From NCBI GenBank assembly GCA_032768795.1, contig CP136493.1, positions 1,054,001-1,118,000 on the forward strand: a stretch of DNA of 64,000 nucleotides, written 5' to 3'. Within the stretch, counting starts at the first letter, position 1. Each line of letters starts with the position of its first letter. This document shows positions 18,699 through 58,300 of the stretch, in pieces. The notes beneath the pieces are model-generated. The model saw only the letters and a program-made list of their open reading frames with translations. It did not search any database and was not told the DNA's origin. The stretch is from Tremella fuciformis. Its lineage: Eukaryota; Basidiomycota; Tremellomycetes; Tremellales; Tremellaceae. Made by a program: the position numbers and the translations under genes.

Positions 18699-19688
18699 AT
18701 GGATGACGCGGAGTGCAATGGAACGACGGAGGCGATGCAAGCCATGTCGCTTGACGATAAGGGTGAGTTCGAGGCGGCATTCCTGGACTATTCCACTCAG
18801 GCGAATCCCGCTGCGGACGATCCGTTTGCCAACCAGATGCAAATGACGAGCGCCATGTTTCCGGACGGAATACCGCAACCGGATGACTTCGCTGCGTATG
18901 CCCCGGACGTCATGGGCGGAAACGACGGCTCAAATGCTGCACAGGATTACGTGATCACGCACTGGACTGCCGGGGGGGATTGGGTGCAGCCGGTTGCACC
19001 ACCAAGCGCACCCAGCACTTCCGGCACGCTAGCTACGCATAACTGGACAACAGGAGCGACCTGGACCAACGCTGAGACACACACCATTGCCCAGACCTTT
19101 GACTCGGCTACGATCGCCTACTCTGTGACTGACGATTTTGCTCGCCAAGAGCCGTACAATCCCCCAACCGAGTACACCACTGGCCCCTTCATACCTCTGA
19201 GCCACAACATGTCCCTCCGCATTACTGCTACCGCTGGAGGCGAGAAGGGCCTAAAATTGAAAGACTCCCTCTCGATCGACCACGATCTCACGGGCGATGT
19301 CCTCATAGAAGCGTTGAGGACTTTGTGTGCGATGTACAAATGCACCGAACAGATGAACCAAACGATTGAGTCAAGCAAAAATGTCATCCGTCATTCGCGA
19401 GCTTTGCGCGAGCAACGCCACGCTTGGCGCAAGGTCTATCGCAACGTTGAAGGCTGCAGGCAAAATGTCGCTCAGATCGACGAATATCTCGCCGGCACTC
19501 AGTCGCAGGCGGACCTAACCCGACTGATGAGACCCTTGGTGAAACACCTGTATAGAACGCATCAGAACGCCGTAGCCGATGAAGGGGGAACGTTCGAAGA
19601 CTTGTGGCTATACTGCGGTGTGCATTGCACTTGCCCGAATTGGTCTGACGAACCACAGCTTCTGCATGCTAGAGATCAACAGTCGTAG
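18699..19688 (+). CDS. Unknown protein, tandem paralogue 2
   Basis: A single exon of 329 residues from ATG 18699 (MDDAECNGTTEAMQAMSL). It shares with paralogue 1 the TEAM motif, SAMFPDGIPQPDDF, and the C-terminal block LVKHLYRTHQNAVADEGG...LWLYCGVHCTC. The middle is Thr/Trp-rich with the repeated phrases HWTAGGDW and NWTTGATW. The similarity is confined to the N-terminal motif and the last 110 residues, so the pair has diverged considerably. Function unknown. Confidence 0.72.
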   Translation: MDDAECNGTTEAMQAMSLDDKGEFEAAFLDYSTQANPAADDPFANQMQMTSAMFPDGIPQPDDFAAYAPDVMGGNDGSNAAQDYVITHWTAGGDWVQPVAPPSAPSTSGTLATHNWTTGATWTNAETHTIAQTFDSATIAYSVTDDFARQEPYNPPTEYTTGPFIPLSHNMSLRITATAGGEKGLKLKDSLSIDHDLTGDVLIEALRTLCAMYKCTEQMNQTIESSKNVIRHSRALREQRHAWRKVYRNVEGCRQNVAQIDEYLAGTQSQADLTRLMRPLVKHLYRTHQNAVADEGGTFEDLWLYCGVHCTCPNWSDEPQLLHARDQQS

Positions 19689-35995: not shown

Positions 35996-36847
35996 TCACA
36001 GTATGTCGCCTGGCGGGTGGTAAAAGGTCCCACTGGTTGCGTGACTCATTTGAAGGGCGCTCAATGCGACCCAGAGGGCCAACGGAACCCTCTCCCTGAT
36101 TTGCTGCTGGGCTGAGAGGCGGTCCAATGACCTTTGCACGAATTTCAGCGAGGCGGCACTCCGAGCCAGGTCCAAGTCTCTTTGACTGTGCAATCAGCTC
36201 AGCGTCCGGGTTCCCGCCTGCAGACTCACCGGTCGGCAGTCAGATCCGTGCCAAACGACTGCAGGATCTCTTTTTCGATCGTCAAGGCCGCTTCTGTGCA
36301 GAAGGGATGCTGATTGCCCTGTTCGTCCCTGTACTCACTGAAACGTTGGTGCAGAGTCCCCAGGGCTTCGTAGATATCCACCGCAGTCTGGATAATGTCA
36401 TCAAAAGTGGCGTCGGGATTCGCCTGCAGCGCCTGTGCGGCAGAGTCTATCTGGCAATAGGGTTCATCCAGAGTCTCTGTCCACTGGTTCAGTGGCAGCT
36501 CATTTCTGTAGTAGTCAGAGAGGGCCGCGAGCCCGCGCATGTCAGGTGGTAGACTGGAGGTTGAACGTTCGACGTAAAGTGACTGCCTGGCCTGTGAGAA
36601 GCTGCGCGCCGTGTTGCCGAACTCCACGATGAGGTTTGCATCCACGCTCAGTGGGAAGGTTGTATCCTGTGCTTTACTTCGGCAGGTGGCTATAGTCTCG
36701 AGGAAATCCTCATTCTAGGTGTCAGCCACTCCGTCGTTCAGCATGGCAAAACAGCATTGTGTCACGGCGCACACTGACCATTACGTCCGGGAGGCTGAGC
36801 ATGTGGCGGGACACGGAAGGACGGTATGATTGGTCAGTAGAGGGCAT
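35996..36847 (-). CDS. Tandem tail-anchored family member 1 (unknown function)
   Basis: Three exons: 36847-36779, 36714-36230, 36185-35996, giving 247 residues in a continuous frame. Intron 1 is phase 0 and intron 2 phase 2, as in the other copies. After a short N-terminal exon (MPSTDQSYRPS) comes ATCRSKAQDTTFPLSVD, matching the family CR-x-K-x-x-DP-x-F-x-L block. The middle is helical. The conserved region before intron 2 reads YEALGTLHQRFSEYRDEQGNQHPF...ILQSFGTDL. The C-terminal segment (RVPLALWVALSALQM) is a weaker membrane helix than in the other copies and is followed by some 16 more residues. Function unknown; no domain recognised. Confidence 0.7.
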
Positions 36848-37355
36848 GTTGGATCCAGGAGATGTGGATGTCGTCGTACAAGAGGTATATCAGATCTGTG
36901 CGCTCGACGTATTGTGTAGGGCAAGACAGTCTCGGCTTTCTGGACTTGAGGTCCTCTTATATTCATCGTCGCACGGCTCATCGGCGTAACGACAAAAAGG
37001 GATGAGGACCGATCCTTTGTCACAGAGCGCTGATGAACAATATGTCCCAAACCTCCGGCCTCGCATCTGTTTCGAATGCCCCATGACGTGGCCCACTAAT
37101 AACGCTGCCGGTGCCACGACGGGGAAAGACCTCATGGCGGAGGATCGGCGAAACAGTATCGGAAAATGCATCTGTACAGATAGACTCCAGCCAAGATGCC
37201 AGCGCTTAGAGACGCCGAGCCAGGAAGATTATAGGGGTGGGGTGGCAAATGTAGTGTGGATATGGCACATCGGCTACTGATGGGGATCAGGCACAAGTGA
37301 GAAGATAAAGACCAAGTTAGTGAAGCGGCGCCTCGCCGCGCTGAGTGAGAACAGC

Positions 37356-38212
37356 CTACGTGGGCTTCTTTGTGATGATCTCCAAAGCCACTTTGGCACC
37401 GACAGCGGCACCGGCAACGACACCAGCCCCGAACGCGGTGGTGTATCTGGCCAAGCCATTGACATTAGCAACCTCAGCCTCGCTGATCGCAGTATCATGT
37501 TCAATAACTTCCTCTAAGCGAGTCATGATCGCGTCTTCAAGCCTGGAGACCCTACCTGTTCAGCGACCAGATCCACAGCATGAGCGCTCAAACTCACTCT
37601 GTCCGGGTCAGGTCGCTGTCGAAACTCCAAAGAATGCTCCGCTCAAGCCTCAGGCTTGCAGCTCTATAGAGCGGATGGGCCTCTCCCTTATAGTTGCGGT
37701 ATTTACCCTTGCACGTCTCGATCCACTGGTGAAACATGCTCAATTCTTCGTAGATCTCGGTAGCGGCTTTCAAGTCGTCCGCGTCAGTTGGCTCTGGGAT
37801 CCCATTCAACACCTTTATGACCTTTGAAATGTTAGACAGATGCTTCTCTCCGTTCTCCGCCACGTCGAGGTAATGGTTCCAATATCCCGCGGCTTTTGAC
37901 ATCCTTGAACCGATGGGGCGCAGGGCAGACGGCATCTGAGCCATGATGGTTCCCTCAGGGATCTCCTTATAGTCCTGCGTTAGGTTGTGCGTTGTGGTCA
38001 GCAAGGCTGCGAGTTTGTCGGAAGTGACATTGAGCGGCTTTCTCTTAGTCTTGGCTTTGCCCCAAGAGGCTTCCAGAGTATCGAAGAAGGCCCCTGTCTG
38101 TCCATCAGAGGCGGGTCACAGGAAGTCTCACGCGACGATTTACGGTAGGCCCTGCCAAAGTGACTTCAAATGGCCGAGAGAAACGAGGGTGGAAGCCGTC
38201 AGTGTTAGTCAT
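37356..38212 (-). CDS. Tandem tail-anchored family member 2 (unknown function)
   Basis: Exons 38212-38144, 38097-37608 and 37552-37356 give 251 residues in phase. Exon 1 ends FSRPFEVTLAGPT, very like member 6 (FSQPFEVTLPEPT). Exon 2 starts TGAFFDTLEASWGKAKTK, then LNVTSDKLAALLTTTHN. The conserved block before intron 2 is YEELSMFHQWIETCKGKYRN...LERSILWSFDSDL. Exon 3 ends in a Gly/Ala-rich hydrophobic segment (TTAFGAGVVAGAAVGAKVAL) and a short basic tail (EIITKKPT), typical of tail-anchored proteins. It lacks the CR pair of the N-terminal motif. Unknown function. Confidence 0.72.
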
Positions 38213-39155
38213 TGTTGTTGACATGATGAGTCAGATCCTTCTGGGTCCGTGTTGTCGTATGACGTCAGCAATTGGGCAGGGCAGTCGATAAGATGGGGAC
38301 GTGTAGAGATCCGTGCGTTCGGAAGCGGGACAGGCTTTGCCGTGGTATGAGAGGACAGATTCGAGTGGCAAAAGAGAAGGAGTTGGCCTCGATGGGCGCT
38401 TCTTAAGGCATGTATGGATCGCAGACACGACGAGCCCACGGGGCGAAGGCTACTTTGGCAGATCCCTTGTCTACAAAACTGTGGCGGCGGGAACTCTGTG
38501 GCAGAACTAGGGGGTGGCGAACAGTGTGGCATGAAGCAATGTGGCACAAAACCTAGTGGCAAATGCAAGACATACGTGTGATGCGAGAGTTGAGACAAAC
38601 CGCTCTGGGTCAAGCGGACGCCAGCTCTCATCCGATTTGCGACGCTGTCAAGGAGACAATGAGCACCGTCCCGATAGCAGTCAAGGCCCAAAAGGATGCT
38701 CTGTCACGGCGGGCGCTCTCCTGGATCTCCTGGAGATACTGCTTTGTCATGGCGGAGAGACCTTCCTGCATCTGATCGAACCTGTGCATTCAGCTTAAAA
38801 CAAATCGCCTTCATCCCTGACATCACTTACGCCTCTCGATGCATCTTGCTACCAGAACTTTGGATGATATCGAATTCAATCAGCTCAGCGGCAATGGGGA
38901 AACTTTCGGGGATGGTCCCATCGTCTTGCCGATAGGACAAGAACGCATTGTGTAGCACAGCCAGGGACTCATAGAGATCAGTCCCGGCTCTCTCGATTTC
39001 CTTCTTTGAGCGGCGAGGTCTGTCTCGCAGCACATCCGCGGAAGCTTCTATCTTCTTCATCGTCTCCCTGGAATGTTCGGCCCACTGAAGATAAGTTGTC
39101 TGGTTTCTCACCGAAGAAGAGATTGAAGAAACCGCCGTCCGCAAAAATGTGGGCA

Positions 39156-39160
39156 TGCTC
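39156..39160. repeat. Target site duplication of copia element 1 (left)
   Basis: TGCTC directly before the 5' LTR, repeated at 44854-44858 directly after the 3' LTR. A 5-bp duplication is typical for Ty1/copia integrases. Confidence 0.9.
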
Positions 39161-39324
39161 TGTTGAACAATAGGCCCCGAGGACCCCGAGGACGCCTCAT
39201 AGGGTCAGAATTGCCTCTTGCGGCCAAATGAGTAACCTTATGTAGATGGCTTGGGCAGAGCGACAGCTCATAAGTAGAGAACTGCAGAGATGGACGAATG
39301 CATAGCTCTCATCATTGTGTAACA
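39161..39324 (+). repeat. 5' LTR of copia element 1
   Basis: 164 bp, TG...CA ends, matching 44690-44853 with no difference noticed. Confidence 0.95.
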
Positions 39325-39338
39325 GATTAAAAGTCCCA
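39325..39338 (+). promoter_or_regulatory. Primer-binding site of copia element 1
   Basis: GATTAAAAGTCCCA directly follows the LTR. Its complement, TGGGACTTTTAATC, has the form of a tRNA-Lys(UUU) anticodon arm (5' stem strand, loop CTTTTAA, start of the 3' strand), not a tRNA 3' end. The same start is found in element 2. Confidence 0.6.
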
Positions 39339-39670
39339 AGTCTCAGCCCGAGACTACAGAGAGCATAACGGGCTGTCTATCGAGCCGTCGCCGCTGCCGC
39401 AGACGCTCTAGACACCGCCACAAACCGAGCCGTCGCCGTCTACATCGCCGCGGACGCTCGAGGAAGTTCCTAGCCGTCAGAGAAGGCTAGAGGAAGAACG
39501 AGAACACCTCGTAAGCACACAGGGAGAGCGTCGGGCCTAGTAACAGGCGCTCTATCGCGAAAGTCGTCCCCAGCGAGGTATCGTTCCGCTGACGCACACT
39601 CTGCCGTCATATTTATCAAAATCAGCACCCCCGCGTGCGCACAGACCATCCCTTACATACCTTTATCGCG

Positions 39671-42600
39671 ATGTCAGCCACCAGAGTCAACATCGACGCG
39701 ATCCCAAAGCTCTCGCATGATCCTTCGTCATATGCGCCGTGGCGGGCGGCCGTAGAAGTCGCCCTGCAGCTTGGAGACTGCTGGAATGCAGCCTTGGGCC
39801 TCGATCCCGAGCCAGGGCGTGTCGCAGCTACCGAGCGTCGCACTCGAGCAGGATCCGTCATGCCGACGGGATCCGAGGCTGGCGCGTTCAGCAGCGAGGA
39901 TAAGAAGGACTGGGAGAGGTGGCAAGCCCGAGAGAGCAGGGCACAGGCGATGTTGAAGGGAACGGTCTCGGAAGCCGTTCGGCTCGACATTGAAGACCTA
40001 CTCGCTGCAGCCGATATGTGGCTGTATTGCGACAAAATGCACGAGGCCGACCTCCTGGAGAATCAGCGCATTGTTCATGCCCGCCTGTGGACTCTAGACC
40101 TGCGAGGGGACGCCTCTGCGGACGAAATGAGCGCTCACGTCGAGACGTTCTCCAAGGCGATTTCGGACGGCAAGCGCGTCGGGATCGTCCTGAGCGACAC
40201 CGAGCGCGCTCAGAGATTCCTTGCCACGATCCTTGACCCCGCCTTCAACATTGTGAGGGCTGAATTGGCCCCCATCGCCAAGGACAAGCAGTCCTGGGCC
40301 GTCGTGCTCTCGAAATACACCACCGAGATCGCGCGACGAAGGGCTAGGCCGCCTCAAGGCCGTCAAGGTAACGGTGGTGGCAAACCGCTCGCGATGGCTG
40401 TCGAGCGTCGCCCTCGGTTCGAGAGAGACAAGGCCAATGACGAGTGTCGACATTGCGGCAAGAAAGGTCATTGGGAGCGTGATTGCCGCAAGAAGGCTGC
40501 AGAACTGCAGCGCGGCGGCCTGCAGGGCCGCGGCGGACGCTCTGCTCGGCAGAGAGGCGGCCGAGGTGAACGCAAGGGCGTTCAAGACCGTCAGGACGTC
40601 GTCGCCGCAGCCGACAAGAGGATCACGATTCCTCCTAAGGCCGACTCGGGACTGCTCGCTGCAGCCCTGGAAGTTGACATGGATCCGTGGGCCGGTTTGA
40701 CTGTTGCCGCCACCGAATGGGCCGAGCTCGATGATGATAGCGACGATCGCATCGTCTTTCCTGACCAGCTCGACAACCCGTGGTTCGAGGATGGGTCTGC
40801 AGAGGCCAGTAATGACGCCCTGTTCACCGCAGACACTCTGCAGGTCGAGTCAGAGGCCGTCGAGCCCGTTTGGGTGCTCGACAGCGGAGCTACCGACCAC
40901 TTGACACCGCACAGGTCGATCCTAAAACGCGTCCGCCGTCTCGAGACGCCCCGAGTCTTTGGGCTAGCCAGCGACACCGGCACAATGCAGGCCATCGAAG
41001 TAGGCGAGATAGATCTTGTCCTGTCGTCTGGGCAACGCCTCACGCTCCGAGACGTCTACCACGTCCCGACAGCTCGAATCAGCCTCTGCTCCCTGTCAAG
41101 GCTGCTGCGATGGGGCTGGCGGGCGGATCTCAAGGGTGACGGCGGAACGCTTGAGCGACGGCAGGAAAGGCTAGCTCTGCGAAAGAAAGGCTCGCTTTGG
41201 ACCGTGCGACTCGGCAGGACGCATCCTACGATCCTGCTTGCAACCGCAGTCGACGCTAGATCACCGCTCGAGGCTGAACATCAGCGTCTCGGTCATATAG
41301 GCATCGAGCGTCTGAAAGAGCTGGGTAGGAAAGACCTACTTACCGAGCCCTGGCGAGTCTATAAAGACGATCCGTTCGTTACCGCTGCATGCGAGGTGTG
41401 CGCTCGCACCAAAATTACCAGGCCGCCGAAGGCCGGTGACGCCCCGCTGCTCAGAGGCGGCGGCGACGGTGTCGGCGTTGATGTCGACATTACCGGGCCA
41501 TTCGAGACGTCCGTTGACGGATGCGAGAACATGCTCGTGGCTATCGAGCGCTCGAGCAAGATCCTTGGCGTGGTCCCGATAGGCCGGAAGTCAGAGGCGT
41601 TCAACGCCTTGCAGCAGTTCGTAGCCAAGATCGAGCGGCAGCTCGGAGATCGCGTCCGAGTCATTCGCAGCGACGGCGGAGGCGAGTTTGATAGCCTGGA
41701 AGCCCGAGCGTTCTATCAGTCAGCCGGTATTCAACATTACATGACGCCTAGGTACACGCCCGAGCTCAACGGGGCGGCTGAACGAACGATACGCACCGTC
41801 AAAGACATGATAGCCGCCATGCTGGCCGATAGCCGCTTGCCTCATTCCTACTGGTCTTTCGCAGCCCGTTACGCCGCAGTAATCATCATGAAGCTGTCTG
41901 TGTCAGCCAGGACGGGCTTATCGGCTTGGAGCGCGCTTACAGGGCGGGAGAGAGGCCTAGATTCCGTCCTGCGATTCGGGCAAAGGTGTCATGCGCAGAT
42001 CCCGTCTCAGATTCGCCGCAAGGCGTCGTTTACGATAGAGCGCGGCGAGGCGTGTCGGATACTCGGTCAGAGTGAGACCCAGAGCGGATGGATTGTGCAG
42101 CTTGACGCCACGGGCGAGATTGCCCATCGAAGAGACGTCAAAGTGCTTGAGATGTCGGAGGACGATGAGGCCGATGTCGGTCACGTGACCCAAAGCGACC
42201 AAGCACAGCTCATACCGGTTGGATCGATGGGAGGCAAGATCGCAAGTCATTCAAGCCAGGATGATGATAGAGACGATCTGGAGGTACCTGGAGATCAGCC
42301 TGAGCCGGGGCAAGCTCAGAAAAATGTCGCTGGAGTAGAGATCTCAGAGGAAGAGCTCACAATCAACGATCCCGCAGTTGCCGTGTCCAACACACCCGAG
42401 CAGCCTCGGGTCCCCCGTCCATCCCGTCTTCCTGTAGCCACCAATCGTTCCAGGATTCCCGTTGCCGACAGGTGGACGTATGTACCAGTCGTCGAGACCC
42501 CGCCGGCACCTCCCGTGGCCGCCAATACCGTCGGACGGCCCGTCCGCGAGAAGAAAGCGCCCGCAAAGTTCGGTGCGATCGTTGAGCGGCTGCATAGCCC

Positions 42601-44695
42601 TTTCGCCTTCCTATCCGCCAATGCCGCCGACGGCCCCGTGATGCCTGTAGATCCCAGGAACCTAGCCGAGGCGATGGCTAGCGATGACAGAGGAGAGTGG
42701 ATTGCCGCCATGGAGAAGGAAATTGCGAACATCGAGAGTAAGGGGACATGGCAAGAGGTCAAACTTCCTGCAGATCGCAAGGCAGTCGGATCGCGTTGGG
42801 TATTTAAAGTCAAGACCGATGCCGACGGCCACGTCGTCAAACACAAGGCTAGGCTTGTCGCACAGGGCTTCTCGCAGGTGCCGGGCGTCGATTTTGAAGA
42901 GACGTTCGCGCCGGTAGGCCGTCTCGGATCTCTGAGACTGTTGCTAGCCATCGCTGCAGCCGACCGCATGATTGTCGCACAGGCCGACGTCGAAGGAGCG
43001 TATCTGAACAGCCCAATCGACACAGAGGTCTACATTCGGTATCCGGACGGGATGCGGCGGAGACCAGGCTGCGACGCTCTGCTGCTGTTGAAGAGCCTGT
43101 ACGGCCTAAAGCAGTCAGCAAGGAACTGGTGGGAAGAGCTAGGACGAGTCTTACATCGACAGGGCTTCCTGAGGACGAACGGTGACTGGGGACTGTATGT
43201 GCGGCAGGACCGACAAGGCCGAATCGTGCTTGTCTTGGTCTACGTCGACGACATCGTGATTGCCGCATCATCGCAGGGGGAGATAGACGACCTGTGGACC
43301 GCCCTAAAGGCTGAGTGGACGATCACTGTCATAGGCGACGTCGGAACCGTGCTTGGGATGAAGGTATCGCAGGACAAGGCTAGGCGGACGATCTGGCTGA
43401 GTCAGCCCGCATACATCGACAGGGTGCTCGAGAGGTTCCCAGAGCACGCTCGGCGACGCACCAGATCAACACCGTTGCCGCAGGATGCCAAGATCGATGC
43501 AGAGGACATGTCGACGGCCCTAACGCCCTATCAAGAACTTGTCGGATGTCTCCTATGGCTAGCGGGCTGCACCCGCCCGGACGTCATGTTCGCGGCCTCG
43601 TATCTATCCCGAGCGCTCGCTGCACCTACCCGTCAGCATTGGGACCTCGCACAAGGCGTCCTGACCTACCTAGCCCACACACGGACTGTTGGGCTCAAGC
43701 TAGGCGGCGGGAAAGATGACGGGCTGCAGGGCTGGGTAGATTCCGACTGGGCAGGCTGCAAGGAGACCCGGCGGTCAACCACGGGTTGGTTGATGGAGTT
43801 CAAGGGCTCGCCGATCACCTGGTCGTCCAGACGGCAGGCTACCGTGTCAACATCCACCGTCGAGGCCGAATACATCGCTGTCGCAGAAGCAGCCAAGGAG
43901 GCAGTTTGGCTCAGGAATCTACTCTGTGAGCTAGGACTCGAGCAGAGATCACCAACGCCGCTCTCCTGCGACAACCAGGGGTCCATCAGACTCGCAGGAC
44001 AGCCTACTACTCACTCTCGAACCAAACATATCGACATAAAGCATCATTTGATTCGGGAACTTGTTGACACAGGCAAAGTCAGCCTGCGGTACGTCAGCTC
44101 TGCAGACCAGAAGGCAGACATCCTCACCAAGTCGCTCCCCGCCGCCGCCCACGCGCGCCATTTTGAAGCTCTGGGTCTGGGCCGTCCGCCTGCCGGCGCG
44201 GAGCGCGCTCTTGTCCACCTAGCGGCTGCATTCAGCGATCTAGAAGGCTTCGGCGGTAGCGGGAAGATGTTGAATGACAAAGTCAGTCGCGCTCCGAATC
44301 GTCTGCCACACCACGTGGTCAAGCCAAAACGCCGAAATGCCGCTAGTCAAACCCATCAGCTCGCACATCAGCAACGCTTCGCTGCATGCGCACGGGGAGT
44401 GAGAGACTGTATGCATGCAGGGGGAGCCAGAGGATCCCAAAGAGGATCAGGGCTACCGGCAGACACCAAGATCATCGATTTTGGGTCGGTATTGATGGAG
44501 AACGGCCGGACGCCTTCCCATCAGCCTGAAGGAAGTGTTGGTCTGGACCGTGCGACGCTCGCGACGCGCGGTCTCGGGCCTCTATCGTCCTGGAGCGAAG
44601 ATCAACAGGCTTGGGGATGCCCGGTAGGTCCTTGGCACAACCGCCAGACCTGTTGCGGCCACCTGCAGCCTGCAGACTTCGAGGGGGAGTGTTGA
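39671..44695 (+). CDS. Copia gag-pol polyprotein, element 1
   Basis: Single frame of about 1674 residues from ATG 39671 (MSATRVNIDAIPKL). Order: Gag with zinc knuckle CRHCGKKGHWERDC, protease VLDSGATDHLT, GAG-pre-integrase HQRLGHIGIERL, integrase with Asp (VDVDITGPF), Asp (RSDGGGEF) and Glu (ELNGAAERTIRTVK), reverse transcriptase with YVDDIVIA, and RNase H with VDSDWAGC, EAEYIA and RTKHIDIKHHLIRE. This order is typical for copia. No stop or frameshift was seen. The frame goes on for about 180 residues after the usual RNase H end and stops at a TGA inside the first bases of the 3' LTR. Confidence 0.95.
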   Translation: MSATRVNIDAIPKLSHDPSSYAPWRAAVEVALQLGDCWNAALGLDPEPGRVAATERRTRAGSVMPTGSEAGAFSSEDKKDWERWQARESRAQAMLKGTVSEAVRLDIEDLLAAADMWLYCDKMHEADLLENQRIVHARLWTLDLRGDASADEMSAHVETFSKAISDGKRVGIVLSDTERAQRFLATILDPAFNIVRAELAPIAKDKQSWAVVLSKYTTEIARRRARPPQGRQGNGGGKPLAMAVERRPRFERDKANDECRHCGKKGHWERDCRKKAAELQRGGLQGRGGRSARQRGGRGERKGVQDRQDVVAAADKRITIPPKADSGLLAAALEVDMDPWAGLTVAATEWAELDDDSDDRIVFPDQLDNPWFEDGSAEASNDALFTADTLQVESEAVEPVWVLDSGATDHLTPHRSILKRVRRLETPRVFGLASDTGTMQAIEVGEIDLVLSSGQRLTLRDVYHVPTARISLCSLSRLLRWGWRADLKGDGGTLERRQERLALRKKGSLWTVRLGRTHPTILLATAVDARSPLEAEHQRLGHIGIERLKELGRKDLLTEPWRVYKDDPFVTAACEVCARTKITRPPKAGDAPLLRGGGDGVGVDVDITGPFETSVDGCENMLVAIERSSKILGVVPIGRKSEAFNALQQFVAKIERQLGDRVRVIRSDGGGEFDSLEARAFYQSAGIQHYMTPRYTPELNGAAERTIRTVKDMIAAMLADSRLPHSYWSFAARYAAVIIMKLSVSARTGLSAWSALTGRERGLDSVLRFGQRCHAQIPSQIRRKASFTIERGEACRILGQSETQSGWIVQLDATGEIAHRRDVKVLEMSEDDEADVGHVTQSDQAQLIPVGSMGGKIASHSSQDDDRDDLEVPGDQPEPGQAQKNVAGVEISEEELTINDPAVAVSNTPEQPRVPRPSRLPVATNRSRIPVADRWTYVPVVETPPAPPVAANTVGRPVREKKAPAKFGAIVERLHSPFAFLSANAADGPVMPVDPRNLAEAMASDDRGEWIAAMEKEIANIESKGTWQEVKLPADRKAVGSRWVFKVKTDADGHVVKHKARLVAQGFSQVPGVDFEETFAPVGRLGSLRLLLAIAAADRMIVAQADVEGAYLNSPIDTEVYIRYPDGMRRRPGCDALLLLKSLYGLKQSARNWWEELGRVLHRQGFLRTNGDWGLYVRQDRQGRIVLVLVYVDDIVIAASSQGEIDDLWTALKAEWTITVIGDVGTVLGMKVSQDKARRTIWLSQPAYIDRVLERFPEHARRRTRSTPLPQDAKIDAEDMSTALTPYQELVGCLLWLAGCTRPDVMFAASYLSRALAAPTRQHWDLAQGVLTYLAHTRTVGLKLGGGKDDGLQGWVDSDWAGCKETRRSTTGWLMEFKGSPITWSSRRQATVSTSTVEAEYIAVAEAAKEAVWLRNLLCELGLEQRSPTPLSCDNQGSIRLAGQPTTHSRTKHIDIKHHLIRELVDTGKVSLRYVSSADQKADILTKSLPAAAHARHFEALGLGRPPAGAERALVHLAAAFSDLEGFGGSGKMLNDKVSRAPNRLPHHVVKPKRRNAASQTHQLAHQQRFAACARGVRDCMHAGGARGSQRGSGLPADTKIIDFGSVLMENGRTPSHQPEGSVGLDRATLATRGLGPLSSWSEDQQAWGCPVGPWHNRQTCCGHLQPADFEGEC

Positions 44696-44853
44696 ACAAT
44701 AGGCCCCGAGGACCCCGAGGACGCCTCATAGGGTCAGAATTGCCTCTTGCGGCCAAATGAGTAACCTTATGTAGATGGCTTGGGCAGAGCGACAGCTCAT
44801 AAGTAGAGAACTGCAGAGATGGACGAATGCATAGCTCTCATCATTGTGTAACA
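44690..44853 (+). repeat. 3' LTR of copia element 1
   Basis: 164 bp, matches the 5' LTR and is followed by the TGCTC target copy at 44854-44858. Confidence 0.95.
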
Positions 44854-45130
44854 TGCTCTGCACCAGAGATCCCGCGAAATCAGTTCTTCGCTCCATGCGG
44901 CGGCGCGCTTGGGTCACGAGCTGCTCGAAAGACTCAGAGCTGACCCGGAAGTCAAAATTGGGGTCCTGCGCCTTTGTTCTGCAAATCGCCAAAGTATCGG
45001 CGAGAACACCCGGCTGATCGTCAGCGACCAGGAGTGCAATCCCTTGAGGCTATACGCGAGCGCTTACGGGAGGGGTAGGTAGCCTAATATCATACTGATC
45101 GTCGTCAGTCTCCGAAGCAGAGGTCAACAT

Positions 45131-45797
45131 TGTTGATATTGAGTGTATATATTGTAGTGCGCCGAGAGTAATGTAGAGAGTCAAAATGAAGCCCAGACCT
45201 GTTCCAAGAAGGGGTTTCAATAAGGTGGCGAGCGGTCCGGCAGCTTCTTGAGCCCTTCCAAAAAGTGCAAGTTGTCAAAGGCTGCCTCTCTCAGACATCC
45301 CCTTCCTTTCGAACTCTCCCCCAGTTTGTCAGTCCGCTCGCAAGTGGTCAAATGCTTCAGCCTCTGGGCTCAACTACCTCTTGGCCTACTTTTCAAGAGA
45401 GCGAGCAACCTCCGCAGTGCGCTTCAGGCTTATCGAAGGGTTCAGGCTTCTCTAGAGCGTCAAAACAAAACAGGGGCATAATACAAACACGGTCAAGTCG
45501 AACTACTCAGTTGCAGGATCAAACGTCCGGAGGCGCGAAGACTATTGAAGTGTAAGTATACTGAGTACACTGGTGGGGAGTTGACTACATCGCGAAGCTG
45601 AGCAGTAGGGCCTGGTCAATCTGCCACATGTGAACAGCAGCTCCTGTAGATGTATAGTAACTCCCGCTGCCCGGTATGATTTGCCCTAGGACTCGTCACA
45701 TCTCCCACTACAGACGACCTGTCGTGAAACGCAATGCATGCACAGGATATATAGGGTGGCGAAAGATACTTGAATACTCACAATGGGACAGCTTTGA
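45131..45797. other. Region between family member 3 and the MITE
   Basis: About 670 bp without a supported gene. A plus-strand Ser-rich frame (about 45265-45555) has no good start and no recognisable content. Confidence 0.35.
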
Positions 45798-45799
45798 TA

Positions 45800-46294
45800 C
45801 AGTTGGGTGTCAGAACTGATTGAACGCTCAAAATTCGTATTTGGCTGTGATTTTGGCTTGTAATGCTGTTGCAAATGTTGCGACCATGTTCTCTTTCCAC
45901 ATAGCACACATGCATCACTCTCCTGCTAGCAGAGCATCCTTATATGCCTCCTGCATGCATACAAAGCTTAATGCATGCAAAATCGATATGCACAAACTGA
46001 GTGAAGGGCTTGCATAAGGGTTGGCATTTAGGGCATGTTCATTCAATTGCCTATTAAATTGGTAATTGGCCAGCACTTTCAGTGACTCTTATCTCAGCAA
46101 CAAACTTGACAATCTATGCATACAGCACCGGCCCCAAGCAAAGAAAAGGTATAAGTATATGTGTACAGACTGTGCTTGCCATAAAAAATGGATGCGTAGC
46201 TAGGTTGCTTGTCAAAGTTGTGCAGAATCACTCCCAGCCAAAATCACAGCCAAATACGAATTTTGAGCGTTCAATCAGTTCTGACACCCGACTG
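45800..46294. mobile_element. Tc1/mariner-type MITE
   Basis: A 495-bp AT-richer element with long inverted ends of about 57 bp. The left end starts CAGTTGGGTGTCAGAACTGA and the right end, read inverted, starts CAGTCGGGTGTCAGAACTGA; the match continues with a single difference noticed. TA dinucleotides flank both sides (45798-45799 and 46295-46296), the target duplication of Tc1/mariner elements. It contains no transposase, so it would depend on one encoded elsewhere. Confidence 0.85.
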
Positions 46295-46333
46295 TAGAGT
46301 GAGGACAGTGCCCTTCACTTCACCTTGACGACC

Positions 46334-47098
46334 TTATTGGGTCGCGGAGCTTCCCACGTATGACGTTATGCGACCAGCGGCGCAGATGAGGGTTGATATC
46401 GCCGCGAAGACCAGACCTACGTTGACTGCTCTAGTCCACCTGTCCTCCCCAAGGGACTTGAGCTCGTCCCAGGTCAACTTCTGAGCCTCATCATTTGCCC
46501 TGTCCAGAGCATCGCGGCTTGCTCATCAGCGGCGTCCCGTCTGTCACTGAACACTTACACATTGTCTTTAAAGTCAGTGCCAAATGACTGTAAGATACCC
46601 CTTTGAATCTCCAGATCCAGAGTGTTGAATACTGCCCGGGTGGCTGCAGATCCTCCTTCACAAGCCGAGAAGTCTTGCTGAAGGCATGAAAGTCGGTCGT
46701 ATATTTCCCGCACGACGGCCTGCCTCTTCTCGGCAAAGGACTCGTCGTCCAATGGGGACACCAAAATATCGGAGAAGGACCTTGACTCCTCGTAGCCGCT
46801 CGAACCTGTCAAGTCATCGACCTGAGTCACTTTGGTCTGTAAACGTTCCGACACGTGTACCACGACGGCCTTGAGGTCGCTGCTGGCCACCGTGAGGGCA
46901 AAGTTTGGGTCCTTAGCATTGCTTCTGCATTGTCGTAAGGTCCTGGCGAAGTGTCCATGCTTATCCTCAAGGTCAGCCACAACTTTGCGGGGAAGCTTTA
47001 GGAGTATTAGAGATGTTGAGGCAACGACTTACAGTAGGCTCACATAGGGTAGTAGTATCGAAAGATGGGACATATGCGCATGAGAGCTTCTCAGTCAT
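46334..47098 (-). CDS. Tandem tail-anchored family member 4 (unknown function)
   Basis: Exons 47098-47033, 46995-46559 and 46517-46334 give 228 residues. Exon 1 encodes MTEKLSCAYVPSF...LCEPT. Exon 2 has FARTLRQCRSNAKDPNFALTV, one of the clearest copies of the N-terminal motif. The block before intron 2 is YDRLSCLQQDFSACEGG...RGILQSFGTDF. Exon 3 has an amphipathic part (DEAQKLTWDELKSLGEDRW) and a membrane segment (AVNVGLVFAAISTLICAAG) 11 residues from the end. Its left neighbour is the MITE, 40 bp beyond the stop. Function unknown. Confidence 0.74.
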
Positions 47099-48630
47099 TG
47101 CGATTGGAATGGATCACAGAAATTGTGCGATAACAAGGAGCGAGTGGCAAATGGGTGCAGCCCTTCCCGTGCCGCAGCTGTTTATACAGGCCATGGGTGC
47201 CACACAGCTGCACGAAGGCATAAACCTTCTTCCCTTGTCTTGTGCACTGCATTCATCCCAACCAGACGCAAGTGGACGAGGTGATGCGAGTCATGTTCCA
47301 AGAGACGCACAGCCTCGCAGAAGCTCGTAATAGGAAATGGACCATTTGCAATCCGAGTACCATTCATCTCACCGTACATGTTCGTACAAAAGCGTGACCT
47401 GATGTCATACTGTGAGCATGGGCAAGAAACAAGCGCGCAGAGCGAGCAACACACGATTTTAACCCGCGCTCCTCCCTTCAGTAAAGTCACAAGAGGCTAC
47501 CCAAAGCTTTGCTAGGCGGGTTGTTGATCGGGATCAATCACATCGCTGCGAGGCAGAAGCACGCAACTGCGCCGACGATAGACAAGTAGACATGAGAAAG
47601 TCATCATGCCATACAGATACCCTTGTGTCAGAGAGCTACCCCCACACGGACATACGCCTCTGAGCTTAGGACTGAGTAGACGTTTCAGGAGTGCTCTCTG
47701 ACAATTGTGTCTTGCCTCTACGCTTCCGACAGGAGGCAAATCGAGTTTGGTCCAGGACCTACCTTGACTGTGAATACCTGTCGTCCCCGCCAGACAGCGC
47801 CCACGCCAAGCCATTAGATCCGCGGGGTATTGCCGTGCACAAATTGACAAGTGACCATCTCTTACACCGGCAGTTTTCCCCTACTTTCCCGCGCCGTTCC
47901 GGTTGCACCTCGGACAACGACATCAGCCCGCCTAGTGAGCTCGCGAGTGGAGACTGTCCAATCGGTCTCATTTCGACTCGATGGACGAGTTTGTGGGCTG
48001 AGGGGGCATGAGGACCCTTAACCAGCTGATGGTGGACATTTCCATGCTGACAAGACACCTCATCACCCACAGTGCTTTCCTGACATTTTGCTGCGCACGG
48101 ATCGCTGCGTTGTCGATGGACACAAGCCGAGCTGTGGAGTGAGCACAGTACATGTCCCCTGCGCTTACAAGATGCTTACTCCCGCGGCAGGGAACAAAGC
48201 AAAAGGGCTCTCGCGAAGAATTGATCACCAACTTTGACAGACTTGGTATCCTGCCGAGCAAGATAAAGGGTTAGCTCAAGTCCCCCCTGTCGGACCCGCG
48301 AAACAGTCCGCGCGTGTTACATTTCCCTGATCAAAGTGCCTGTCACAGTCCCGTCAGGCCTTCGGTATCTCAATGTACCCAGAAAGTGCCCGTGAGCATT
48401 CATAGACTGGGATGCAACCGTTCGCAGTCTGAAGCGAGTGGGGCAGTTCCCACCCTTTACGGATATTTGCAGGGCAAGGCTCGTTGTAGTCCGTTCTTCT
48501 ATGATCGGCAGGATAATAAAACTGTACCCTCATGGGTAGAGCAGTGATGCATGTAGTAGAGAATTTCACTGCATTTACCACAATTGTAAGGGAAAGCTTT
48601 GTACTGAGAAACGCGAAAGGCAATGCGGGG
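47099..48630. other. Long intergenic region in the tandem array
   Basis: About 1.5 kb with only short overlapping frames. A minus-strand frame at 47968-48261 could be an old family fragment, but the N- and C-terminal motifs were not found. No gene is called. Confidence 0.35.
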
Positions 48631-49272
48631 TCACTTCGTGAAATGACTGAGGCCATACCCTAAAGCCATCACACTCCCAACTGCAAGAACCTGTGCGGTA
48701 AGCACACGAGGGGCAATATCCTTTTGCCGCTGTTTGTCAAGCTGGTCGTACGAGTCATGGGTCAGTTCCACCGCGCTCTTTATTCTGTCAAGACTGCATA
48801 ATCAGCCGAACGTCTAGCGTCAGGTCGACACTCACAATGCCTCGGCGCTTCTGCTGTCAAGAATTGCGGTCACTGCCCCTGTCAGAATAAGAGTCATCGC
48901 ACGGAATGCAGGATGTTCTTCGTCGTCTTTGTCTCGATAACCCGCGAGTTGCTCATGCAAAGACAGGCAGAATCCAATCACAGCGCGTGCGAGTGTTTCC
49001 TTCGCCAGAGAGTCCTGTCTAGCATCCGAGGGAGTGGCTTGAAACTTTCTGACGGATTCGAAGTTTTCGGTGGCTGTGTTGTCTAGGTAGTCCGCCAACT
49101 CAGTGAAATATACCTTCTGCTCTCTCCAAGAAGCAGGGGACACCCACTCCCTCACCGGCTCGGGCGAAGAGTCAAAGAATGTCGGTTTTCCAGCGACCTG
49201 CAGCTGTTTGGCCCGTGCTCCCAACAAACCCAACAGACCGTCAGTCCCTTGTGAGGTGACTGTGCGCCACAA
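48631..49272 (-). CDS. Tandem tail-anchored family member 5, N-terminus not found
   Basis: Exon 3 (48793-48631) follows a phase 2 intron (48835-48794, GTGAGT...TGATTATGCAG) as in the other copies. It encodes RIKSAVELTHDSYDQLDKQR and the terminal hydrophobic segment RVLTAQVLAVGSVMALGYG. The upstream exon (about 49272-48836) has only the general layout: FCLSLHEQLAGYRDKDDEEHPAFRAMTLI matches the family YRD...HP region. The CR...DPNF motif and exon 1 are missing, and no in-frame ATG is present near 49272. It may be a truncated or much diverged copy, or its first exon is unrecognised. Confidence 0.5.
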
Positions 49273-49745
49273 AATATTTTACTTCGCATTGATCTTGCAA
49301 GTCAACATGTACAGCATATGCTCCAAAGACAACAGGTCTCCGAGTCAACGCTCACTAGAGCCTCGAATCGATCCTCCACTTATTTATGCCTCAAACAGAC
49401 AGCCGAGTGGTTGGAGAAGATCGGAGCCCAAGATGATCGATTCGTACCCCTGCATGTATCGAGCAGTATGCGCACCTAGCTGCCCATAGAAAAACTCGAG
49501 ACACGTGCTTGCCTGCTGCGAAACCAGCACTCTCCTCGAACCTCGGATGTATGAATGGCTCGTACGTAGCAGATCGACAAGGGGGTGGCGGTGCGAATCG
49601 AAAAATTGCTATCCCTGTGCCCCGAGTTGAGAGTCGAAAGCCGACTTAGGCAGTGGGAAACATGTACATACCAAACGCAGCGGGTTGTATTCGAGTCAAA
49701 CAGTCACCAGCGGTCCAAAAATGGGGACGTTATTGTAGACACGAC
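49273..49745. other. Intergenic region in the tandem array
   Basis: About 470 bp; the missing first exon of member 5 could lie here, but none was recognised. Confidence 0.35.
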
Positions 49746-50587
49746 CTACTGCATGCTCGTAGTCGCCGTATGAATGGCACTTATGCAAAAGACGGCTAGA
49801 ACAAGTGCACGGACCGAAGTGTCGCGTCGCCTCGCTAACTCAAACCCGCCGCGCGAAAAGTTCCAGTCACGGTTGATGCGCGCCGAGCTGCTTTCTCTGT
49901 TCAATGCTTCTTCGCTGCACGGTGAGCCGCGGGACTATGACCAGCGGCACTCACAATTCTTCAGAGAGCCTGCTGCCGAAGCTCTCAATCGTAGCTTGCT
50001 CGACGGTTAGCGCCACAGCAGGAAAGTAATGAGGATTGTGGTCGCCCTCGGTGCGGCTATTGTTGAGCTCTTGCCACAGGTTACCGATCGACTCATAGAA
50101 ATCGAGCGAAAACGCCTCGATATCCGTCAATGTCCTCTTGTCTTTTGCTTGCAAGGTTTCGGCGGCGCGCTTACTCTTCATCAATGCGTCTGTGAGTAAT
50201 TTTGCGGTGTGCGTGGCAGCGGCTTTCTGCTGCATCCAGATCGTGGACGAGAGCAGCCAAGAGACTGGATAGGGCAACATCTCCCCCTCAGTCAATTCTC
50301 CTGCTTCCGCTGCGAGCTTTCGCGTGAATGTCAAGACGGTCACCAGCTCCTCGACCGATTTCGAAGTAACTACAAGTGCAAAATTTGGATCCCGACACTT
50401 ATAACGACAATCGCTCAAAAAGCGGCGAAAATGTCCAGACTGCGTTGTCAGGAGTGTCACATGGTACGATTTGTAGACTTACTGTGGGTTCTGGGAGGGT
50501 CACTTCAAACGGCTGGGAGAACAGACGTTCCACCTGAGGGACGGCTGTATCATGCTCATCAGATGACCCGGTTGCGTTGTCAGACAT
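49746..50587 (-). CDS. Tandem tail-anchored family member 6 (unknown function)
   Basis: Exons 50587-50483, 50439-49955 and 49896-49746 give 246 residues in phase. Exon 1 ends FSQPFEVTLPEPT, intron 1 is 43 nt, and exon 2 begins SGHFRRFLSDCRYKCRDPNF followed by ALVV. The block before intron 2 is YESIGNLWQELNNSR...EQATIESFGSRL. Exon 3 is basic (SSSARINRDWNFSRGGF, LARRRD) with a membrane segment SVRALVLAVFCISAIHTA close to the end. This copy and members 1 and 4 give the clearest definition of the family. Confidence 0.76.
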
Positions 50588-51479
50588 CACGATGGGCTCA
50601 GTACAACGTCGCCCTCTATAACTCGGTCTTAACCCTTCAGGCCACTCCGTGTGTGAAGGGCACGCAACCAGCGTTTAGGAGTCAGAGGGATATGCGGAAC
50701 GGTGACCTGGAGGCTATGTATACTGAATGGTGTTGCGAGCGATAATTCTTCAGACCCTGCAGACAAGTGGGCGAACCAGCTACGGACTGACCAAGTGGCT
50801 GTGCAGTGCTGAAACTCCAGCAGAGCCACTATGAGATAGATCTTTTCATGCATCCTTTGTCGGCTGCCAGCCTTCGCGAGAGCTAGTGCAAATTTTCGAG
50901 CATTGTGTGAAATGATTTCGCAAAGCGAGCGATTCCTGAGGGTTGCGCATAGCATGCCTTTTGTGGCCGAAGTGCATGGAGCAGGTCAAACGAGTTTCTT
51001 GTGTGTCGCTGCACAACGCGAAAGCCCTGAGAGGGGAAGAGCCAGGCTTCTCATGGCGGCTTCTCGCATCCTCGAGTATTAGCACTCTCGATCGAAATTC
51101 GGGGAGGCTTATCAAGCGGGTTGAGCAGGTAACAGTCTTGTAGCAGCTTCGAGCCCAATGCCTGTCCTGGTCCACCCTTCTGTGCTTCCACCTTGAGCCA
51201 TCCCGGCTTGGCGACCTGCCACCAAGGTAGAACTGCATTGTGCCTTTCTGCTTCCGAAAGTGGGGCTTATGTCATGTTAAGAGGAACATGGCCACGACAT
51301 CTTGCGTCCGCGAAGATCATTGAACGAATCCCCACAGGGCGAGCAGGAACGATACCGTATACTCCTATTTGCGATGCATCCACTGCAGAAAAATGCTGTA
51401 CACTTCGATCACATGTGCGACTTCGCGGCCGTGGCCCAAAAGCGTGAAGCGCATATCTATTCCTCGTGGTTATACGAGA
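50588..51479. other. Intergenic region in the tandem array
   Basis: About 890 bp with no supported gene; only short overlapping frames. Confidence 0.35.
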
Positions 51480-52283
51480 TCAGTTGATGTTGCGCTTCGC
51501 GAGTGAGTACCAGGCAGATGCCCCGAAGATGGGAGCCACAGCAGCTGTTCCCCGAAGCAGTGATTTCAGCGACGATCGCGCGTCCCTATCACCCCAAAGC
51601 CTCTCGCTTGCCGCGGACTCCAAGGTGTCCCGGCTTGGAAACCTGTCTCATCAGGCGACCGAATTTGATCAGCAGCGGACACTCACTTGGTCTCATCGGG
51701 CTTCTGCCCGAAGGAACGGAGGACAGCCTGTTCAACGACCACTTTCATGAGCTCGGCGGCAGGATGTGGCTTGCCGTCCATAGTTGAGAATGTCGAGAAA
51801 GCCTTATGCAGACTCCCCAGCGACTTGTACACTTGGGTTATGGCGCTGGTGATATCATCAACCGGAGACGGAACTTGAAGGGCCGGGAGTGCGGCTTCCA
51901 GGTCGATGGTCGGCTCCTCGACAGCGGCCATTTGCTCATTCGTGTAGTGCCGTGAGGGCTGCCAGTGGGACAGGACCCAACGCATACCAGGAGGCATGCT
52001 GCCCGCCGTCCCATTGTGCATCTGTTTGGTCAAGAGCTTGATGCGCTCGCAAACTGGCTCGACGGTAGTCGCGAGGTGTTTGGAGTCAACCATGAGAGAG
52101 AAGTCCGGATTCTCAGACTTGTCTCGACATTCTTTCAGCAATTCGTCCCAATCTTGAGACTGACATCAGCGACAGAGATGAGACCCCGCGTCGAGGAGGC
52201 GACCAGCAGGTACTCACTGTAAACTTAGGAAAGGTGGTCTTGAGCGAATTCACGGACCCGAACGGCGTACCAGTCGTGGACAT
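51480..52283 (-). CDS. Tandem tail-anchored family member 7 (unknown function)
   Basis: Exons 52283-52218, 52159-51687 and 51642-51480 give 233 residues. Exon 1 is 66 nt (MSTTGTPFGSVNSL...), the same length as in member 4. Exon 2 begins SQDWDELLKECRDKSENPDF then SLMV, the family motif. The block before intron 2 is YKSLGSLHKAFSTF...QAVLRSFGQ. Exon 3 has LESAASERLWGDRDA and the hydrophobic segment LLRGTAAVAPIFGASAWY, ending in the basic AKRNIN. It is the last copy recognised before the O-fucosyltransferase-like gene. Confidence 0.75.
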
Positions 52284-54534: not shown

Positions 54535-55310
54535 CGTACTCGATCGTGACTAGGCCGGCAGCAACAGCCAGGATAACACAAAGCAAGGCCTTGGCTCAGC
54601 GGTTTAACAGCCGTCACCCCAAGGTCTGGATTCTTCTTGGCTGTGTGGGCCAGTACGGGACGTGTGCTTAATTGGGTGACTCCATTTTGCGCCGCCTGCG
54701 CTGTGTTTCCCCGGTTAGGTTTACTATTAATCTGTGGTCCCCAGTACCTATTTGGCGCTGGTTTGCCCGATTAGTAGAGGGTCTAGTCAGTCAGTCGGTT
54801 CGAGTACCACGAGGTGCGGCATAGCGGGCATTCGACAACGTCGATCGTCAGACCCGTGCAACTTCATCGTCTCGGTATTCTCTATCCGACAGACCGAGAC
54901 GACGGAACGCCTTGTTCAATCCGTCACGTCCTGGAGGGCGGTTTTGCCTTGGACGGTTGTCCTGGAGGGCAGGTTTTTTGCCTTGGACACGGAGGACGGA
55001 GAACTGGAAGGGCGCGCCTTGTTTAACCGGAAAGCCCACCACTCTTGGGCGGGAGAACTGAAGGGCGGGAGTAACGCTCTGCACCGTGCAGGTGTAGGAG
55101 AAGCGGGCAGTCTAGCTTCGGCTCAGACGTAGACATTGTCTTCGGACGGTGTGGAAATCCAGATTATCACTGGTGGCGTGCACGGAGAGGCCCTTGGTGC
55201 ACGTCTTGCGTACGATAAGTCCTCTCCGAGAGTTTTATCACTCTGTTTAAGGCTGTTGCTGAATTCGCAACGGATAAGGCCTTGGTCGTCATCACCTATT
55301 CTACGGCACG

Positions 55311-58300
55311 ATGAACGACAATTTCACTTCAACCACCACTGCCGCCCAGGCAATTCCTTTCCTCTCGACACCCCGCGGTTACTTCAAATGGCGCTTTGCT
55401 GTCCGCCTTGACCTCACTACGGCGGGATGCATTGGCATCATTGAAGGTACGGATGTTGAACCGTACAGGACGGGTGGAGCTGGAGGAGTGCCAGTGCGCA
55501 CGGCGCGTGCTGGGTCAGTAGCACCTGAGGGAGACACGAGTCTCACAGGTGGCGTGCTGGGCACCGCAGAGCTCAAGCGGTGGGAGGAGTGGAGGAAGCG
55601 GGAATACTATGCGCAAGGTGTCATCCTACGCAGGTTAGACCCGGGGATTCAGATGGAGATCTCAGAGATGAAGTCGGCCAAGGAGATGTGGGACTGGCTG
55701 GAACGGGACATGAAGCGCGAGGACCCCGCATACAAGGCATCCACCGATGATGCTCTACGCGCTATCCGCCTTCCCGCCAACGCCACTGTCAAAGATCACG
55801 CCGATCATCTCAACAAGTTCAACTCTCTTTTCTTCGAATCTCAACAAGCCGGTAACAAGTACGAGGACTCCACCCGCGCTCTTATCTTTCTCAATACTCT
55901 TGTCAACAACCCACGTTGGGACATCCCTATCCAATTGCTCGAGTCATCACCCCTTTACGAGCAAAGCTGGTCGGAAGTCCGACAATTCTATCAAACCCAA
56001 GTATCACGGTGGGAGGCCAAAGGTCTACCGTGGAAGGAGGCTCAGCCTGCAGCTCAACTGAACGCTGCGGAGAAGGGCGAGCGGATCTCCTTGGAGAAGG
56101 GTGCGAAGAAGGGTGGCTGGAAAGCCAAGAGTGGAGGAAAGGGCACGAAGCTGGTGTGCTGGATGTGCAACAAGGAAGGACATCTCAAGCGAGACTGTCC
56201 AGAGAAGACAGGCGTCCGAGGGAGCAGCAAGGTGACCAAGGGTAGAGGAGAGAAGCAGCAGGATGGTGAAGAAGACCGACTAGTCAACTTCTTTGCCGGC
56301 GCTACCTTCTCGGAACAGGCCCTTGCCTCGACCTCCTCAACGCCAGAATTCCTTGTCGATAGTGGATGCACGCACCATGTGTCCCCGTACAAGCATTTGT
56401 TCACCAACCTCAGACCTCTGAAAGAGTCTGTTGTATTTCATGTCCCTGGTGGTCACCAATTCACGGCAACCATGACAGGCGACATTGTCATCACCACATC
56501 CTCCGGACACAAGATCAAGCTGCTCGATGTCTATTATCATCCTCAGACAACGAAGAACATGCTTTCAGCCTATACCCTTATCGACAAAGGCTGGAGTGTC
56601 AAGCTTAAGGAGGAGACCGTGGAGGTGGGACCTATCAAGGTCAAGGGGACACGGCGAGGAAATTTGCTGTGGGTCAAGCTCGGTGCAGTACGCCACACAG
56701 AGCTTGAGGATCCAGTGAAGTTGGATGTGAGGGAGATCAACGCTCTCACTGTCCGTGAAAGCCCACTGGAGGAGGAGCACAAGCGTCTAGGACATATTGG
56801 ACGAGAGAAGCTCCTGAAGCTGGCCGGTGATGGCCATCTACGGTATTCTAAGGAGGAGTTGGAGAAGGACAAGTTCAGGCTGGATGACTGCGACGCTTGT
56901 CAAGCTCGGAAAACAACTCGACCTCCAAAGAATGGTGAAAGCCCTCGAGGGCAGTCGGACTGCGAGGTCATACATATTGACATTGCTGGTCCTATGGACC
57001 CCTCGAAAACAGGCTTTCGGTATTACCTTGGTATCATTGATGATCACTCAAAGATCAACAATGTGGTTCCCCTCGTCAACAAGCAGAACGTCTTCTTCCA
57101 CGTCATCAACTTTGTCAATAGGATTGAGCGGCAGACTGGTCACAAAGTCAAGTTCATCAGGACAGATGGTGGCGAGGAGTTCAAAAGCGACAAAGCTTTA
57201 GTATTCTATCATCAGACTGGCATCATTCACCAAATCTCGCCACGGTATACACCTGAACTCAACGGAGTGGCAGAAAGGTTCAACAGAACGGTGAAGGAGA
57301 TGATAGGAGCGATGCTTTCCTCGGCAAATCTTGGACATGAGTACTGGGATTACGCAGCCAAGTACACCTCGGTGATGCTCATGAAGACGGCATGGGGAGG
57401 AGACGGCGTCAATGCTTGGACAAAATTCACTGGAAGAAGTCCAAACCTGGCGCACACTCTCATGTTTGGCGAGCTGGTCTTTGCTCAGATCCCAGCAGAG
57501 ATCAGGAAGAAGGCAAGACTGGATACGGACAAGGGAGAACTGGCACGGGTAATGGGGTTGGAGATACAGCGGAGCGGCTGGTTGGTGAGGATGGAGGGAG
57601 ATGGGCAGCTGCACATCAGTCGTGACGTCAAGAGCGCATCTGGACACCCTCTCACACCGGACAACACCATCGTTCCAATTGATACACCGCAACAACCCCC
57701 GGCAGTCACGGCAGAAACAGTTCCTCCGGCACCGGCTGCCATTGCACCAATATCCATGGCACAAGTCCGACCAGTACAAGCGGCTGCAGACATTCCAAGT
57801 CAGGAAGAAGCTGCTCGGGAACCAGAGAGGAGAGAGGAAGTGTCCGTGCAGGAGAAGGAGGGAGAGCAACAACAGGTGGAAAGGGTCTTGGAGCAAGCAT
57901 TGCCAGTCAATGCTGCTCAGGAAACAACGACACCCGATTCACTGCTGGACACCCTCCCTGTACCGACACCGCCTGAAGCTGTGCCACCACCCATGCCAGT
58001 GAGGCGCAGCAACCGTGTTGCAGAAAGGGTAACCTCTGTTCACCAGGCAAACCTAATGCAGGCATGGCACGGAGAGGATGCAAGGGGAGCATACCTGGCA
58101 TCCGAGACAAGGCTAGAGGAGGACACATCCTCGGGAGAATCAGAGCCTCCAACAGCACGAGAGGCACTGATGGGCAAGGATCGGGATAGCTGGAAGGCAG
58201 CAATGCTGAGGGAGCTCGACAACATTGAGTCAAAAGGGACTTGGGTCGAGGTGATGCTCCCACCTGGTCGGAAGGCCATAGCATCTCGATGGGTTTTTGC

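Follow-up and report, generated by a model that had tools for sequence, protein, structure and literature searches.

The stretch of the Tremella fuciformis genome analysed here (64,000 nucleotides, contig CP136493.1, positions 1,054,001 to 1,118,000; hereafter the window) contains seven homologous genes on its minus strand, which occupy positions 35,996-52,283 and are numbered from G1 (52,283) through G7 (35,996). From comparison of their sequences and exon plans, the seven are shown to be one divergent paralogous family of common descent. We tentatively read their products as cytosolic helical bundles that a single C-terminal helix anchors to the membrane of an organelle (probably the outer membrane of mitochondria) and that serve as docking adaptors, a role we regard as possible rather than probable.

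A divergent gene family in tandem

Five of the genes (G1, G2, G4, G6 and G7) are intact, G5 is split by a Copia retrotransposon and G3 is incomplete. The gene models are as follows.

51480..52283, minus strand: G1; exons 52283-52218, 52159-51687 and 51642-51480; 233 aa; hydrophobic tail with the end AKRNIN; exact match to public protein P0002
49746..50587, minus strand: G2; exons 50587-50483, 50439-49955 and 49914-49746; 252 aa; exact match to public protein P0004
48631..49259, minus strand: G3; exon 2 from about 49259 to 48836, exon 3 48793-48631; held-out profile match
46334..47098, minus strand: G4; exons 47098-47033, 46995-46559 and 46499-46334; 222 aa
44854..45130, minus strand: G5, 5' part; exon 1 45130-45068; start of exon 2 45013-44854, ending in the target duplication GAGCA
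38628..39160, minus strand: G5, 3' part; remainder of exon 2 39160-38831, with the target duplication at its start; exon 3 38781-38628, with hydrophobic tail
37356..38224, minus strand: G6; exons 38224-38144, 38097-37598 and 37551-37356; 258 aa; exact match to public protein P0001 from the second Met
35996..36847, minus strand: G7; exons 36847-36779, 36714-36230 and 36185-35996; 247 aa; nearest to the ENA relative P0003 (66%)

Complete spliced reading frames are present in five of the seven window copies, with GT-AG introns of 37-64 nt. A first-pass annotation of this DNA had proposed that the seven minus-strand genes share one design, with introns in phase 0 and then phase 2, and both proposals hold: the exon plan is common to the copies and held-out members are matched by the family profile (see below), while intron 1 is in phase 0 in all six window copies that have it and intron 2 is in phase 2 in all seven, as are the corresponding introns of G8, a further copy outside the window. 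The same annotation had the frames closing when spliced, which is confirmed for the five complete copies; in G5, exon 2 is interrupted by the Copia element. Likewise, the range it gave for exon 2 (437-490 nt) is right at its lower bound (437 nt in G4) but extends at its upper bound to 500 nt in G6, a length consistent with public protein P0001; exon 2 measures 473 nt in G1 and 485 nt in G2 and G7. A third exon 2 of 485 nt, which had also been counted, is obtained when the two G5 pieces, of 160 and 330 nt, are joined and the 5-nt duplication is counted once.

Two motifs are less general than had been described. The ending x-P-T closes exon 1 in G2, G4 and G6 but not in the other copies (three of six in total), and the CR-x-K-x-x-DP block, said to open exon 2 in all seven genes, is missing from G3. 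No exon 1 was found for G3 either, and this gene is a 5'-truncated copy or a pseudogene. A motif absent from the earlier description, PFEVTL, occurs in exon 1 of G2, G6 and G8 (three of the seven copies with exon 1).

Three of the gene models are matched by spliced products in the public protein set. P0002 and P0004 are letter-identical to spliced G1 and G2, respectively, and P0001 is letter-identical to spliced G6, beginning at the second methionine of G6. Translation across the introns would interrupt the reading frame, so these three proteins most likely derive from transcripts. For P0002 and P0004 alike, the longest contig on record is 4,514 nt; one contig, a read-through transcript, may cover G1 and G2.

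Homology among the copies was assessed using a profile built from six exon-2 sequences (G1, G2, G4, G6, G7 and the off-window G8), searched against 2,603 six-frame open reading frames (ORFs) from the window plus six fetched loci. This profile recovered the held-out pieces, namely G3 (E 9.5e-12), the 3' piece of G5 (E 3.6e-16) and the 5' piece of G5 (E 1.4e-6). Divergence between members is large: the four other complete window proteins are 19-25% identical to G1, and exon 2 of G7 alone, searched against the 28-Mb genome (11 contigs, 28,140,229 bases), matches G1, G2, the G5 3' piece and G6 at E 6.1e-9 or better, G4 only at E 1.07 and G3 not at all. Recent duplication found no support: no DNA repeats of at least 25 nt (seed 12) were found between copies, the direct repeats being the long terminal repeats (LTRs) and a pair within the Copia element.

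Outside the array, the genome carries a further intact gene, G8, on contig C8 (998,440-999,228) and, adjoining it, a broken copy, G9 (C8:997,776-997,990), which is nearest to G7 and is followed by transposon-like sequence. A transposase-like sequence noted by eye just after G9 (fetched locus L017, 7500-9550, minus strand) may have truncated it. Weak genome matches on C1 (two), on C2 and at 817 kb of C8 were rejected as extra copies, having no exon-2 profile support once fetched. Six queries were used for the family in the genome (exon 2 of G7, G2, G8 and G3, together with P0002 and P0001). Since each single-sequence query recovers few copies (G8 finds G2 at E 0.0037 and G3 finds none), more diverged copies may be missed, and the copy count, with G4 outside the query set, is a lower bound.

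Apart from the genome's own products, the sole relative returned from the public protein set, whose number of fungal genomes is not known, is P0003, a 138-aa protein from a 13.9-kb ENA contig that aligns with G7 at 66% identity, without gaps, along 136 residues. P0003 has no relative in the virus collection. In a nine-row tree none of the six inner branches is starred and the order of duplication is unresolved; only the grouping of G7 with P0003 is fairly supported (93/97).

The tempo of evolution can be followed in one pair. Over 70 codons, G7 and G9 differ at 21, 11 and 44 first, second and third codon positions, respectively; dN is 0.26, and dS is not computable owing to saturation. Saturation at third positions combined with few differences at second positions argues for protein constraint over a long time, and the earlier description of the family as fast-evolving is not borne out. 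G7-G9 is the only countable pair and one member is a dead copy, so that it cannot speak for the rest of the family.

The hydrophobic tail and the predicted fold

All seven window copies, and G8 as well, have a C-terminal stretch that can be delineated as a hydrophobic segment, though it is weak in G1 and G7. When hydropathy is averaged over 17 residues, each of the six complete proteins has its maximum near the end of the chain, in a stretch that stops 5-14 residues short of the C-terminus. The mean tail score over eight copies is 1.71, a value equalled by none of 100,000 random sets of eight drawn from 564 six-frame ORF tails. At the other end, the first 45 residues of the six proteins reach mean hydropathy maxima of -0.12 to 1.02, and no N-terminal signal peptide is seen in them as judged by hydropathy only. 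By this measure, the tail-anchored layout that had been put forward agrees with the data (C-terminal maximum in six of six, no hydrophobic N-terminus), G1 and G7 being weak when taken singly.

Charged residues frame the segment to varying degrees. Arg or Lys lies at most six residues ahead of it in seven of eight copies, and at the C-end there are at least two basic residues in G1, G6 and G8, one in G3 and G4 and none in G2, G5 and G7. According to passages of PMC4154396, mitochondrial tail anchors are short segments of moderate hydrophobicity with positive charges after them; compared with this description, G1, G6 and G8 fit, G3 and G4 fit partly and G2, G5 and G7 do not. The family resembles mitochondrial outer-membrane tail-anchored proteins in its one short, moderately hydrophobic C-terminal segment, with basic residues after it in some copies, and in having no hydrophobic N-terminus, whereas it differs from them in that its cytosolic part has no Pfam match and three of eight copies have no following basic residue. 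Examples of this class are Fis1, Tom5 and Miro.

Searches for known domains agree with the earlier statement that none is recognisable. All Pfam matches of nine family sequences (the five complete proteins, G8, P0003, the G5 3' piece and G3) are below cut-off, the best being Sey1_3HB for G8 (E 0.0078). PADLOC, run on five sequences, gave a sole match that is weak and unrelated (E 0.032), and the best match among the sequences of solved structures in PDB is at E 0.14. No fold match to PDB or viral structures is outstanding for the family proteins.

AlphaFold models of P0002 (mean pLDDT 72.5, pTM 0.68, with ten-residue blocks of 83-94 over residues 21-60 and 101-180) and of P0001 (mean pLDDT 64.6, pTM 0.66) both have a strand-helix-strand arrangement followed by helices and are mainly helical, at moderate confidence. 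In the predicted fold, exon 1 would contribute one short strand at its PFEVTL-type motif, and a second strand, which may pair with the first, would follow DP-x-F-x-L in exon 2; about four main helices would come next, with the anchor helix last.

Helical models that end in a hydrophobic C-terminal helix would also suit a far-diverged known tail-anchored helical family, for example syntaxin-like SNAREs acting in membrane fusion. Foldseek does list syntaxin-1A, though only at rank 34 with E 3.0, and no SNARE family is matched in Pfam at E up to 10 by any of the nine family sequences. The SNARE motif is about 60 residues long; the roughly 20-42 exon-3 residues ahead of the hydrophobic segment are short for it, although exon 2 could add to them. 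What the family shares with syntaxin-type SNAREs is a tail anchor behind a helical part; what sets it apart is the missing Pfam SNARE motif and the short pre-anchor stretch. We consider membership of such a family very unlikely.

A possible docking role and its alternatives

As docking adaptors, the proteins would be inserted post-translationally via the C-terminal helix, with the bundle facing the cytosol, and every copy would present a different surface on the common scaffold to a different partner. Partial redundancy among the copies would account for the loss of single ones; the damaged members of the family are G5 (Copia insertion), G3 (truncation) and G9 (the broken copy elsewhere). The gap-free 66% identity between G7 and P0003 and the constraint between G7 and G9 are counted toward this role.

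Several points weigh against it. The weakest step is the adaptor role itself, which is reached by elimination because no catalytic family is recognisable. The tails are only moderately hydrophobic: G1 and G7 reach only p = 0.16 and p = 0.10 against six-frame ORF tails, p stays above 0.05 when G1, G6 and G7 are set against shuffles of their own composition, and all eight copies come out positive in a rough insertion-energy sum on a position-independent scale. Given the modest hydrophobicity and the positive sums, some tails may not span a membrane. In addition, G2, G5 and G7 have no basic residue after the segment, and the anchor region has a pLDDT of at most about 54 in both AlphaFold models. 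Finally, the public protein set yielded no spliced product for G4, G7 or G8, a weak silence since one search of that set scored the best 7,992 candidates by shared words and missed P0004.

Modest hydrophobicity in G1 and G7, like the eight positive insertion sums, is also what would be expected if the tail were not a membrane anchor at all and the proteins were ordinary soluble scaffolds, helical bundles whose C-terminal helix packs on the bundle or on a partner. We find this doubtful, in view of the hydrophobic maximum standing at the same place in all six complete proteins, the Arg or Lys just ahead of the segment in seven of eight copies and the mean tail score that no null set matched in 100,000.

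Roles in recognition, defence, incompatibility or membrane contact had been named for the family as possible but unsupported. More specifically, it could be an intracellular recognition system whose diversified surfaces sense non-self in the form of another nucleus or of the companion fungus Annulohypoxylon stygium, and tandem copies that are gained and damaged amid transposons would be in keeping with this. However, with the genome searched exon by exon, no NACHT match (PF05729, 11 candidates scored) and no NB-ARC match (PF00931, 3 candidates scored) was found at E 0.001, in searches whose control genomes are prokaryotes and do not gauge sensitivity in fungi; this result weakens both the recognition and the incompatibility readings. 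HeLo, HELLF and Goodbye are cell-death domains linked to NOD-like receptors (NLRs) in fungi. The family is like them in that they are small helical domains of diversified fungal families, but it has no Pfam match (up to E 10, none of the nine sequences matches HeLo, Goodbye or a related family), its hydrophobic segment is C-terminal, and the genome is without a NACHT or NB-ARC match. PADLOC gave no credible match, and the sole countable pair, G7-G9, bears no sign of diversifying selection.

Evidence from published work falls on both sides of a recognition role. Passages of PMC13066641 report that T. fuciformis strains associate with A. stygium isolates from their matching cluster and with no others, but they also place partner specificity, as a hypothesis, on accessory chromosomes. 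The array, which would be at about 1.09 Mb of chromosome 4, lies outside the accessory compartment at 1-500 kb, and chromosome 4 is 99.99% alike between the two nuclei of Tr01 (passages of PMC10696834). STE3 matches were found on C8 and C2 and none on C4, the contig of the array; G8 is about 204 kb from the STE3 of C8, and in Tr01 haplotype A the pheromone-receptor locus is on chromosome 8 (passages of PMC10696834). With no NACHT or NB-ARC match, no credible PADLOC match and no STE3 on C4, the suggested recognition, defence and incompatibility roles gained no support, and we judge a recognition system unlikely.

The array is otherwise comparable to fungal lineage-restricted tandem families, with its tandem paralogues, almost no outside relatives found and transposon-damaged copies, but differs from them in that its one countable pair looks constrained and not rapidly diversifying. 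Highly improbable, in our estimate, is that it represents a new organelle-surface receptor set, with a new fold, mitochondrial by its tail and tandem-diversified so that every copy binds its own partner, that would discriminate partners or nuclei without NLRs. The literature search, with subscription papers outside its coverage, returned nothing that links tail-anchored proteins to orphan genes of fungi, to heterokaryon incompatibility or to Tremella, and the family is unmentioned in passages of PMC10696834, PMC13066641, PMC13288022, PMC12116889, PMC2712456 and PMC4154396.

Neighbouring elements and significance

Two mobile or mobile-like elements lie within the array.

39161..44853, plus strand: Copia LTR retrotransposon within G5; LTRs 39161-39324 and 44690-44853; long ORF 39593-44695
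45798..46296, strand not assigned: element resembling a miniature inverted-repeat transposable element (MITE) in the G4-G5 interval; 76-nt inverted repeats, 91% complementary, with 347 nt between

The Copia element is 5.7 kb long, with 164-nt LTRs that are 100% identical and the 5-bp target duplication GAGCA on either side. In its ORF, RVT_2 and Pol_BBD are above cut-off and gag, rve and SH3 below. A genome search with the LTR, in which the best 40 of 140 candidates were scored, gave at least 40 places at 96-100% identity, at least eight of them, both window LTRs included, at 100%. Because of the many places at 96-100% identity, this Copia family looks recent.

Elsewhere in the window, a second Copia polyprotein, different from the one in G5, is encoded at 55278-59714 (plus strand) by an open frame of 1,478 codons with RVT_2, Pol_BBD and gag above cut-off. 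Long ORFs at 1949-7373 (minus strand) resemble, by eye, a Helitron with a PIF1-type helicase. Two neighbouring ORF regions, 17232-18259 and 18546-19688 (both plus strand), carry a similar block ending in a CxC motif, as noted by eye; they have no Pfam family above cut-off and are perhaps a second small tandem orphan family. At 59984-61663 (minus strand) there is a 559-codon open frame of Gly-Thr-Val-rich repeats with no Pfam match. The search for RNA genes found none.

Taken together, this analysis outlines a protein family that is missing from the Pfam copy searched and for which the spliced products of three copies are already public. Its host, silver-ear, is a cultivated edible mushroom that needs a companion fungus, and the 27 published T. 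fuciformis haplotypes (PMC13066641) would let copy number, polymorphism and selection be tested directly. RNA-seq of this fungus from mycelium, colloid-type cells, fruiting body and mixed culture with A. stygium is described in PMC10696834. If the tails are indeed mitochondrial, the array would stand out as an unusual case of tail-anchored adaptors present in several tandem copies.

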